This document shows, piece after piece, positions 44,955 to 64,000 of a stretch of 64,000 nucleotides of DNA. Position 1 is the first letter of the stretch. Each line of letters opens with the position of its first letter. The notes under the pieces are model-generated. The model saw nothing but the letters and a program-made list of their open reading frames with translations. It searched no databases and was not told where the DNA came from. Where the stretch lies: positions 1 through 64,000 of the forward strand of contig CADCDO010000006.1 of the NCBI GenBank assembly GCA_902800345.1. Direction: 5' to 3'. This DNA is from Fibrobacter succinogenes. Lineage in GTDB: Bacteria > Fibrobacterota > Fibrobacteria > Fibrobacterales > Fibrobacteraceae. A program made the translations under genes and the position numbers.

Positions 44955-45042
44955 TTCAAATGATCCTTAACATAAAAGGTCGTAGTAAAATTAACGTTTT
45001 TTATGGAGATTGTGTTCCTTGCAGGACGAATTTTGCGATTTT

Positions 45043-45261
45043 GTGCTACCAAATCCCCATTTTTTGATGCTTTGGTAGCATATTTTTTACTTTGTATGAT
45101 GAAAATACAGCCGTATGGATGGTTTATGTGTTACTGAATCTGCTTTTTTTACCATTTTGGTAACATAATCTGCGGTGTAAATTCAAATTTTTTGAGAAAA
45201 ACGCTTAGTTTGTACGCAAAATGTGCTACCGAACAAAGATTTTTTTTGCATTTGGTAGCAT
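45043..45261. repeat. Triplet of 39-nt inverted-repeat sites, copy 1
   Basis: Sites lie at 45043-45081, 45128-45166 and 45223-45261, each 39 nt from GTGYTAC to GTARCAT with an 11-nt left arm, ~17-nt variable centre and 11-nt right arm. Start-to-start spacings are 85 and 95 bp, the reverse of copies 2 and 3, so this copy is probably inverted. It fills most of the 349-bp gap 44955-45303; no gene is visible there. Confidence 0.85.
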
Positions 45262-45303
45262 TTTTTCGCATTTCGGACCCTTTTGGTGTGCCAAAACCAG
45301 TTT

Positions 45304-61902: not shown

Positions 61903-61984
61903 TTAAATTTTTAGCCTTTGTAAATGCGAAAATTCTCTTTGCTTGCTGGTTTTTTAAGGGACGAAACCTCGAAATTGCGAAAAA

Positions 61985-62204
61985 GTGCTACCAAAAGCTG
62001 AAAAAAGTTCTTTTTGGTATCATGTTTTTTATATAAATTAATTAAAATTGGCTGATTTGGAGACCTTGTAGCGCTGTTTGTGTTACCAAATTGGCTGAAA
62101 ACGGTGATTTGGTAGCATAATTTGGTAATGCTTTCCCTTAAAAATGTATGGACAACGTAAAATTTGTGCTACCAAAATGGGGAAAATATGGTTTTTGGTA
62201 GCAT
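61985..62204. repeat. Triplet of 39-nt inverted-repeat sites, copy 2
   Basis: Sites at 61985-62023, 62080-62118 and 62166-62204, spacings 95 and 86 bp. The third is perfect: TGCTACCAAAA/TTTTGGTAGCA. Between sites one and two, TATATAAATTAATTAAAATT is shared with copy 3; flanking ATTTGTGCTACC and TAAAACC are also shared. It fills most of the 368-bp gap 61903-62270. Confidence 0.9.
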
Positions 62205-62270
62205 AAAACCTGCAAAATGGGCTTCTCGTTTTTTTTTATTGTAGCTTGTAAATAAATCGAAGGTGTGTTC

Positions 62271-63153
62271 ATGTCCTTTAAAACAAGTTTTTTTTCATGT
62301 CTGTCTTGGAGCCGTTGGTCCCTGAACAAGTACACTGAGTTTGCCGGGGTGCTGTTGAAAGGGATGACGATAGGAGCCTTTGCTATATTCTTTGCGGCTT
62401 GTGATGATGATAGCGGTAGTTCTGTGGACCCGGAAGTAATATTAAGTAGCGATAGCCATGAAGAATCTAGTGGCAGTTCATTTAATGGCTGGAGTTGGGA
62501 TGTGCCGAAGGAAGCCCGTCTGAATCCGGAAATTGCCTACGGTGCCATGATGGATTCCCGTGACGGCAAGACTTATAAGACTGTAACCATTGGCTCCCAG
62601 ACTTGGATGGCGGAAAACTTGAATTATGATGACAGTGTAACCACGACGAGTCTTATGGACGAAAGCTGGTGTTACAACGATGTGGCTACCAATTGCGATG
62701 TGGCTGGTCGCCTTTACAGTTGGCGCGCTGCGGTAGATTATAAAAAAACTGGCTGCGGAAGTGGTCCGATATGCTTAACGACCTTGCCTGTGCAGGGCAT
62801 TTGTCCTGAGGGCTGGCACTTGCCGGATTCAACGGAATGGAATACTTTGTTCACTGCGGTCGGTGGCGCATCCACTGCTGGCATAATGCTCAAGTCCCGG
62901 AGCGGCTGGAATGATTACGAAGGTAAAAATGGGAACGGCACCGATGCCTACGGTTTCTCCGCGTTGCCCGCCGGAGACAGGTACAGCAATGGTTTCTGCA
63001 CCAATGAAGGCCGCAACGCAATTTTCTGGAGTGCCATCAGAGATGGATCATTCCAACGCTTACTATATGTACTTGTACAATGACCATGACTATGGGGCTC
63101 TGGACAGTTACTTCAAGAGCAAAGGTTACTCTGTCCGTTGCGTTAAAAACTAG
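62271..63153 (+). pseudogene. FISUMP-domain lipoprotein with a frameshift near the 3' end
   Basis: From the ATG at 62271 the product has a lipoprotein-like segment (AIFFAACDDD), a Ser/Asp linker and one FISUMP domain: TIGSQTWMAENLNYDDS, SWCYNDVATNCDVAGRLYSW, CPEGWHLPDS. The frame then drifts to LLYVLVQ and stops at 63083. The expected FISUMP ending SNAYYMYLYNDHDY...GYSVRCVKN is in the +1 frame (to 63153). The shift is near 63040-63055, with no homopolymer run. It is either a real mutation or a sequence error. It lies between two hairpin triplets. Confidence 0.8.
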
Positions 63154-63199
63154 ACATCTCCCTCCGCTCTGCTGCTGTTGATTCTACTTTGAAAATTAA

Positions 63200-63228
63200 A
63201 TCCCCTGTACTTCATCAGTACAGGGGAT
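63200..63228. terminator. Strong hairpin between convergent genes
   Basis: ATCCCCTGTACT, TCATC, AGTACAGGGGAT: a 12-bp stem (first base at 63200) with no mismatch. It lies between the FISUMP gene and the convergent lipoprotein gene. The following T-run is short. Confidence 0.75.
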
Positions 63229-63253
63229 GTCTAATTTGATTAAAAAATTAGGG

Positions 63254-63613
63254 TCAATACCAAGAGCCAGTACCTTGCATTGCAATAGGGCCTTCATTAT
63301 ATGTGTAGTTGACGACGACGCCATCTTTTATCATAACATCTAATTTTTGTTGTTTGCCAGAGACCTGAGTTGATGTTAAACCTGTTGTGCCTTGTGTATC
63401 CATGTACATGTAGGTCCAGATTTCACCTCCGTCAGTCATTGCTTTATTCATTGGTGCGCCAAATTTTTGGGTGATTTGATCAGCTGTCGTAACATTTTTT
63501 TCTATGGCTTGTACATTGGCTGGATCAATTGCAGTACCCATAACGGAATGTGATGTTTGTGCACATCCAATGACGAAAATGGATATCATAAGAAAAAGAA
63601 ACAGTTTTCTCAT
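63254..63613 (-). CDS. Small SmpA/BamE-like lipoprotein, 119 aa
   Basis: The signal peptide MRKLFLFLMISIFVIGC gives lipidation at Cys 17. The mature part, with NVTTADQITQKFGAPMNK and GGEIWTYMYMD, resembles the SmpA/OmlA (BamE-like) fold, in which conserved helix-strand segments bind partner barrels or peptidoglycan. It probably lies in the periplasm or outer membrane. The start at 63613 follows GGAG; an ATG four codons upstream overlaps that ribosome site. Confidence 0.75.
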   Translation of the reverse strand: MRKLFLFLMISIFVIGCAQTSHSVMGTAIDPANVQAIEKNVTTADQITQKFGAPMNKAMTDGGEIWTYMYMDTQGTTGLTSTQVSGKQQKLDVMIKDGVVVNYTYNEGPIAMQGTGSWY

Positions 63614-63762
63614 ATTCTTCTCCATGCTGTTTTGTAATGTTAGTATGTTAAGTGGAAATATGTTGAATTTCTAATAAATATATTTCTTGGAAGTAGAGAT
63701 GATTGTATTTTTTTCTTTTCAATTAATCTTTGATTGTCGCAAAATCCCGAAAATGCTAAAAA

Positions 63763-63981
63763 GTGTTACCAAAAGTTGGAAAAAGTGATTTTTGGTAGCA
63801 TGTTTTCTATATAAATTAATTAAAATTGGCCGATTTGGAGGCTTTGTTGCCCTGCTTGTGTTACCAAATTGGCGGAAAACGGCAAATTGGTATCATTATA
63901 TGGTCTTGTTCTTCCTGAAAAGGTACATACAAGTTAAAATTTGTGCTACCAAAATGGGAAAAATATGGTTTTTGGTAGCAT
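63763..63981. repeat. Triplet of 39-nt inverted-repeat sites, copy 3
   Basis: Sites at 63763-63801, 63858-63896 and 63943-63981; spacings 95 and 85 bp. It shares with copy 2 the TATATAAATTAATTAAAATT core and flanking words, so the repeat is at least ~230 bp and may continue past the window's right edge. It lies upstream of the lipoprotein at 63254-63613 in a 387-bp gap with no other gene. Confidence 0.9.
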
Positions 63982-64000
63982 AAAACCGGCAAAAATGGCC

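Follow-up and report, generated by a model that had tools for sequence, protein, structure and literature searches.

Fibrobacter genomes carry intergenic arrays of about 260 bp, in which palindromic sites are repeated at whole turns of the DNA helix. It is probable that a PD-(D/E)XK nuclease-like protein, specific by paralog, recognises these arrays as double-stranded DNA and that they are satellites of this lineage-specific enzyme. By a small measure we also lean towards a broader picture, in which radiating PD-(D/E)XK nucleases of switchable specificity assemble on self-seeded, helically phased arrays and both partners change specificity together in place. The geometry of the arrays, their phasing, their association with nuclease genes, their vertical inheritance, the concerted change of arms, the tracking of arms by the N-terminal domain and the catalytic motifs of the protein were obtained directly. 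The sequence-only reading that first drew attention to the repeats knew of no named element with this layout, and none was matched in Pfam, NCBIfam, Rfam or the literature searched; a literature search for such repeats in Fibrobacter also found nothing. As far as these libraries and this literature show, the system is new.

Arrays in the window

The window, that is the whole stretch of 64,000 nucleotides that was analysed, belongs to a Fibrobacter draft genome of 4.27 Mb in 103 contigs (G000). On re-examination the nine inverted repeats noticed there earlier were confirmed in their positions and in their exact length of 39 nt, and the spacings of 85/95, 95/86 and 95/85 bp were reproduced, as was the opposite orientation of the first triplet to the other two. 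The proposed pattern GTGYTACCAAA-N17-TTTGGTARCAT fits, but several sites depart from it by 1-3 mismatches (e.g. those at 45128, 61985 and 63858), and the span of 61985-63981 given for the repeats holds arrays 2 and 3 only, array 1 (45043-45261) lying outside it. In 100 dinucleotide shuffles of the window there were 0 matches at up to 3 mismatches. With each array oriented so that the shorter spacing comes first, the features are as follows.

45018..45286, + strand: array 1, A-B-C order on the + strand, outer ends of ~25 bp included
45043-45081, + strand: site A of array 1, TGCTACCAAA - N17 - TTTGGTAGCA
45087..45095, + strand: generic motif after site A of array 1, TTACTTTGT
45128-45166, + strand: site B of array 1, two mismatches in the arms
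45223-45261, + strand: site C of array 1
61960..62229, - strand: array 2, A-B-C order on the - strand, upstream of the FISUMP gene at 62265
61985-62023, - strand: site C of array 2
62033..62041, - strand: generic motif preceding site C of array 2, TTAATTTAT
62080-62118, - strand: site B of array 2
62166-62204, - strand: site A of array 2
63738..64000, - strand: array 3, A-B-C order on the - strand, between a BamE-domain ORF and lysS
63763-63801, - strand: site C of array 3
63811..63819, - strand: generic motif preceding site C of array 3, TTAATTTAT
63858-63896, - strand: site B of array 3
63943-63981, - strand: site A of array 3

Array 3 is cut by the end of the window, past which its outer end continues for a few bases (~6 bp). 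A site of the window family consists of the arms TGNTACCAAA and TTTGGTANCA around a T-rich 17-bp centre, and an array reads, in order, an outer motif close to TTTTTGCGATTTT, site A, TTACTTTRT, site B, TTAATTTRT, site C and TTTTCGCAA, the two outer motifs being roughly inverted copies of each other. The generic motif between the sites (consensus TTAMTTTRT) is present in the other arm families looked at. As a separate observation, TAnnTTW is enriched within 80 bp upstream of the predicted genes of the window (13 against 3.7 expected), which suggests a Bacteroidetes-like -10 element; the generic motif resembles it.

Distribution and divergence of the arrays

Searched through the whole of G000, the pattern matched at 60 sites and its reversed control at 0. 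From the loci examined 21 complete arrays were extracted, with spacings of 84-86/95 bp, to which a profile search adds a few weaker ones. A strict triplet pattern scanned across genome contigs was found in Fibrobacter assemblies only. None of the predicted genes in the loci examined is overlapped by an array, so that all arrays there are intergenic. A preference for FISUMP or lipoprotein genes did not prove to be the rule, since arrays adjoin core genes of all kinds.

Arrays precede most nuclease genes and also some other genes (array 2 and its FISUMP gene), as would be expected if they were operators of ordinary regulons under transcription factors derived from the nuclease. Read by eye, however, the 21 arrays are divided into about 7 in convergent, 7 in divergent and 7 in tandem settings, and the genes that flank them are of all kinds with no common function. 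Because the arrays prefer neither an orientation nor a gene function, and with the catalytic motifs of the protein conserved, the regulon explanation is regarded as improbable.

Between arrays of G000 the arms are 85% identical, the centres 40% and the inter-site DNA 47%, where composition alone gives 27-30%. Whole arrays have a mean pairwise identity of 56%, yet their spacings are only 84-86 and 95 bp with almost no indels; what is constrained is array length and arms, and much of the remaining sequence has diverged. The most alike pair reaches 82%, and a recent burst of MITEs was rejected, near-identical copies being absent. Discrete units and roughly inverted outer ends would also suit MITEs in decay, left by an ordinary DDE insertion sequence, but between the arms the sequence has diverged strongly whereas lengths and arms are preserved, and the associated gene is neither a DDE transposase nor itself repeated, which leaves this origin very improbable.

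Helical phasing

Distances between neighbouring sites were collected from eight family-by-genome sets (125 intervals). They cluster at about 63, 74, 84, 95, 105, 136, 157, 168, 180 and 200 bp, that is at whole helical turns from 6 to 19. The best period is 10.46 bp with R 0.91 (n=125 intervals), and R is 0.88 for the 77 intervals that remain once the window family and the GGACC set are taken out. Homologous arrays are non-independent, and a Rayleigh probability therefore overstates the significance; taken by themselves, the 21 different spacing values yield ~2e-5, with neighbouring values among these also non-independent. The helical repeat of DNA (10.46-10.5 bp) is thus recovered from sequence alone, which makes a higher-order complex directly testable.

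Nature of the sites

Two choices had been offered for the repeats, a paired site for a dimeric protein (recombinase, transposase or structural protein) or a conserved hairpin RNA, and it is the former that found support. Arm positions 1/39 pair less than expected (20 vs 26.3), A-C mismatches being common there, while pairing at positions 4/36 is mildly above expectation (31 vs 22.7); covariation between the arms gave no stem-like pattern, and a search of the window in Rfam matched no family. The palindromic arms and the T-runs after sites A and C would suit a hairpin RNA or ordinary transcription terminators. Nevertheless, beside the missing covariation, the frequent mismatches and the missing Rfam match, one arm sequence is common to all loci of a genome and the sites are spaced in whole helical turns, so this reading is scarcely credible. 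Arms that are kept around centres that are not, without the covariation of an RNA hairpin, point to double-stranded protein sites. The dimeric-protein reading agrees with the fixed geometry of the half-sites, with the whole-turn phasing and with the nuclease-like protein that is cognate by association; on these grounds we infer, with good support, that this protein binds the arrays physically.

The nuclease-like protein

The array at miaB in G000 precedes a gene (G000:C15:90323-91192) for a protein of ~280 residues, the C-terminal part of which carries the motifs RSKSE, PDF and WEH of PD-(D/E)XK type. In an alignment of 37 sequences R172-E176, P207, F209 and W222-H224 are invariant and D208 nearly so. 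The C-terminus matches that of PADLOC's PDC-S68 (E 7e-30), whereas no Pfam or NCBIfam family was found for the protein and none in Pfam for its N-terminal domain. The AlphaFold2 model, which is confident (pLDDT 93), has a PD-(D/E)XK-like C-terminal half; its fold matches are weak, to restriction enzymes (DrdV for one, E 0.012) and to viral proteins of restriction type (E 1.5e-4), and sequence searches against solved structures gave nothing significant. Motifs of the E...D...E type and the modelled core fold place the predicted nuclease in the PD-(D/E)XK superfamily. No methyltransferase was recognised by eye among the immediate neighbours of the nuclease genes.

Across 151 genomes of the phylum the family occurs in Fibrobacter and one close genus, with a partial match in another genus. 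It is absent from G002, G003, G005, G008, G010, G012, G013 and G015, where arrays, judged mainly by the profile of one family, were likewise undetected; a 400-kb stretch of G005 gave 0 arrays by script. In G014 there is a domain match only, inside a larger frame, and in G016 and G020 the gene is present with the window-family profile unmatched, their genes carrying arrays with other arms.

The C-terminal nuclease domain of 115 aa recurs in large AAA/RecD/RecQ-type helicase proteins on plasmids (H4-H12) and also in viral contigs (L275-L284). A relative with 36% identity over residues 73-277 lies on a 4.2-kb human faecal 'bacteriophage' scaffold (L300, MT839528.1, 3201-3824). An origin from phages or plasmids was rejected: matches on plasmids and viral contigs are mostly to the C-terminal domain only, those on plasmids within AAA/helicase-type proteins, and viral contigs give three single-site matches of the array, probably by chance.

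Pairing of arms with nuclease paralogs

More than 20 arm sequences are represented across Fibrobacter in the same array layout, although in these draft genomes the arm-family patterns may miss diverged families. Relatives found by the array profile carry the arms TGCTACTAAA, GGGTACYAAA, TGTCACYAAA, GGACCAAA, GACGCC, GGGCATATAA and others. Upstream of miaB alone the element has TACC arms in G000, GCTACT in G001 and G004, GACGCC in G007 and GGTAC in G009, and several other species have no element there.

At least two palindromes with similar arms lie within 520 bp upstream of 32 of the 38 full-length nuclease genes, and at least three in 27 of them. The same script found them at control genes in 2/250 cases in G005 and in 10/250 in G007, which itself bears arrays; of the six nuclease genes without an array by script, one or two show sites by eye. 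Sites of the TTACGTACT type number 65 in G000 and 27 in G001, both with a cysS-linked nuclease, and 0 or 1 in five genomes without it, where the control pattern gives 0-6. At G000:C40:51738-52463 TTACGTACT sites are locally amplified, and identical centres recur among them.

In a Mantel test, approximate because the arms were assigned by hand from upstream palindromes, arm similarity followed protein similarity with r 0.53 (0/2000 permutations). By domain, r was 0.55 for the N-terminal and 0.44 for the nuclease domain, and among pairs below 60% identity 0.40 vs 0.16. These comparisons support a tie, presumably one of recognition, between each arm sequence and one nuclease paralog. Some families are without an identified nuclease, e.g. 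TGTCAC in G007, the assembly of which is incomplete, and G087 has arrays with the nuclease undetected. On G087:C1 (L326-L329) the arrays are near-intact in a near-complete genome, a possible case of recent loss of the nuclease.

It could be supposed that the dispersed arrays act as a DNA antidote or sponge which holds a potentially toxic or defence nuclease inactive and assembled. If array loss harmed cells, arms would be kept intact at every locus irrespective of its position relative to genes, which indeed appears irrelevant; among the G000 TTACGTACT sites listed all arms are exact while centres vary. The catalytic motifs are conserved as well, and the C-terminal domain resembles the candidate phage-defence PDC-S68. 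G004, however, keeps the nuclease although the only array of that family there is the one that precedes the nuclease gene; dispersed arrays are thus dispensable, and no partner or toxicity is known. We consider the antidote unlikely, if worth keeping in mind, and the satellite interpretation is followed below.

Inheritance and movement

Nuclease genes are syntenic between species at miaB, purA, rnd-trpS, lspA-rluD, gatA and cysS, and their presence at the same places in different species indicates vertical inheritance. The arrays, too, are inherited vertically: in four corresponding pairs from G097 and G057 the arms are 94% identical without gaps, the centres 83% and the flanks 78% with many gaps, and array 1 has an ortholog in G019 (L079). 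The lysS array (array 3) is of the TGYTACCAAA/N17 type in G000, while its orthologs in G097 and G057 have TGCTACTAAA-type arms (TACT/TACA type) with N16 at all three sites. Its specificity has evidently changed in place, in concert at three sites. At lysS in G004 a broken TACC remnant remains.

The members of the pairs L023/L024 and L038/L039 lie at unrelated loci, and their identity of 77% reaches no further than ~20 bp beyond the outer sites; similarity confined in this way to the element implies that arrays are at times copied as units. With no near-identical arrays in G000 such movement is rare at best. In the intergenic region before xseA there is a family of its own in G000, another one in G006 and G019, and no element in G001, G004 and G014. 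Loci without the element thus exist, and their diverged flanks leave no clean boundary and no readable target-site duplication. Two other kinds of repeat were noticed. In several genomes short microrepeats such as CTACTTCCTACTTCCTACTGTCTACTAA and CTCGTCTCTCGTCACTCATCTCTCGTCTAA recur before start codons in the intergenic DNA that precedes miaB and lysS, and on many G001 contigs there are numerous copies of a repeat of 53-88 bp that matches the flank of the L024 array.

Sites by which each paralog clusters its own loci, in the manner of a macrodomain or centromere, would be in keeping with whole-turn phasing at multiple distant loci, spread over a 2.3-Mb contig in G097 and in several cases common to G057. 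A chromosome-organising role is, however, poorly compatible with a G004 that is down to one array and with the many Fibrobacter species that have no nuclease; specificity that changes fast would be out of the ordinary in a system of this kind, and the catalytic motifs are conserved. Little probability is given to it.

Proposed mechanism

As satellites of the nuclease, the arrays could work as follows. The N-terminal domains of a dimer would read the two 10-bp arms across the T-rich centre of 16-19 bp. With three or four such dimers spaced by whole helical turns, all would lie along the same face of the DNA and combine in a single complex. Where the array precedes the nuclease's own gene, the complex would limit the expression of that gene. 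Arrays at other loci would be satellites, copied rarely as discrete units, then vertically inherited and kept intact as long as the nuclease persists. Both the autoregulation and the copying of arrays by the nuclease are steps which we infer. Should the proposal be right, more than 20 natural protein-arm pairs would be at hand for deriving a DNA-recognition code. With loci fixed and arms switched in concert, one must ask how a nuclease and dozens of sites change specificity together.

Comparison with known systems

In the res sites of serine resolvases (Tn3, gamma-delta) dimers occupy three inverted repeats, and the helical phase of these to one another is important. In contrast to these, the Fibrobacter sites are equal in length, have N16-19 centres and are dispersed at many loci; the associated protein is nuclease-like and no crossover core was seen. 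Plasmid parS and sopC are repeated sites in which arms of switchable specificity flank a bendable centre. They are served by another protein family, whereas the Fibrobacter arrays are chromosomal, dispersed, intergenic and optional. A nuclease domain of PD-(D/E)XK type is shared with Rpn (YhgA-like, PF04754) and PDC-S68, but the Fibrobacter protein, unlike Rpn, has no PF04754 match, and Rpn proteins are not, to our knowledge, linked to dispersed arrays.

REPIN-RAYT systems of Pseudomonas and E. coli have a vertically inherited, single-copy enzyme gene per type, with palindromic repeats beside this gene and dispersed in extragenic DNA; several types occur per genome, and enzyme and repeats coevolve (PMC3116915, PMC8049555). 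The Fibrobacter nuclease gene is also single copy per type, vertically inherited and adjacent to its own repeats, which are likewise intergenic and dispersed. The REPIN-RAYT enzyme is an HUH/Y1 transposase, while the Fibrobacter one is PD-(D/E)XK-like with no such domain, and Y1_Tnp (PF01797) is absent in the array-rich G000, G006 and G007. Instead of single-strand hairpin doublets that fold with conserved pairing there are units of three or four double-stranded sites at whole turns, lacking such pairing, and the copies are strongly diverged. Membership in REPIN-RAYT was rejected for want of a Y1 enzyme in the array-rich genomes and of hairpin pairing, and with both missing it can be said that the system works like REPIN-RAYT but is not REPIN-RAYT. 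If the proposal is right, Fibrobacter has arrived at the enzyme-plus-satellite lifestyle of REPIN-RAYT a second time, by an unrelated route.
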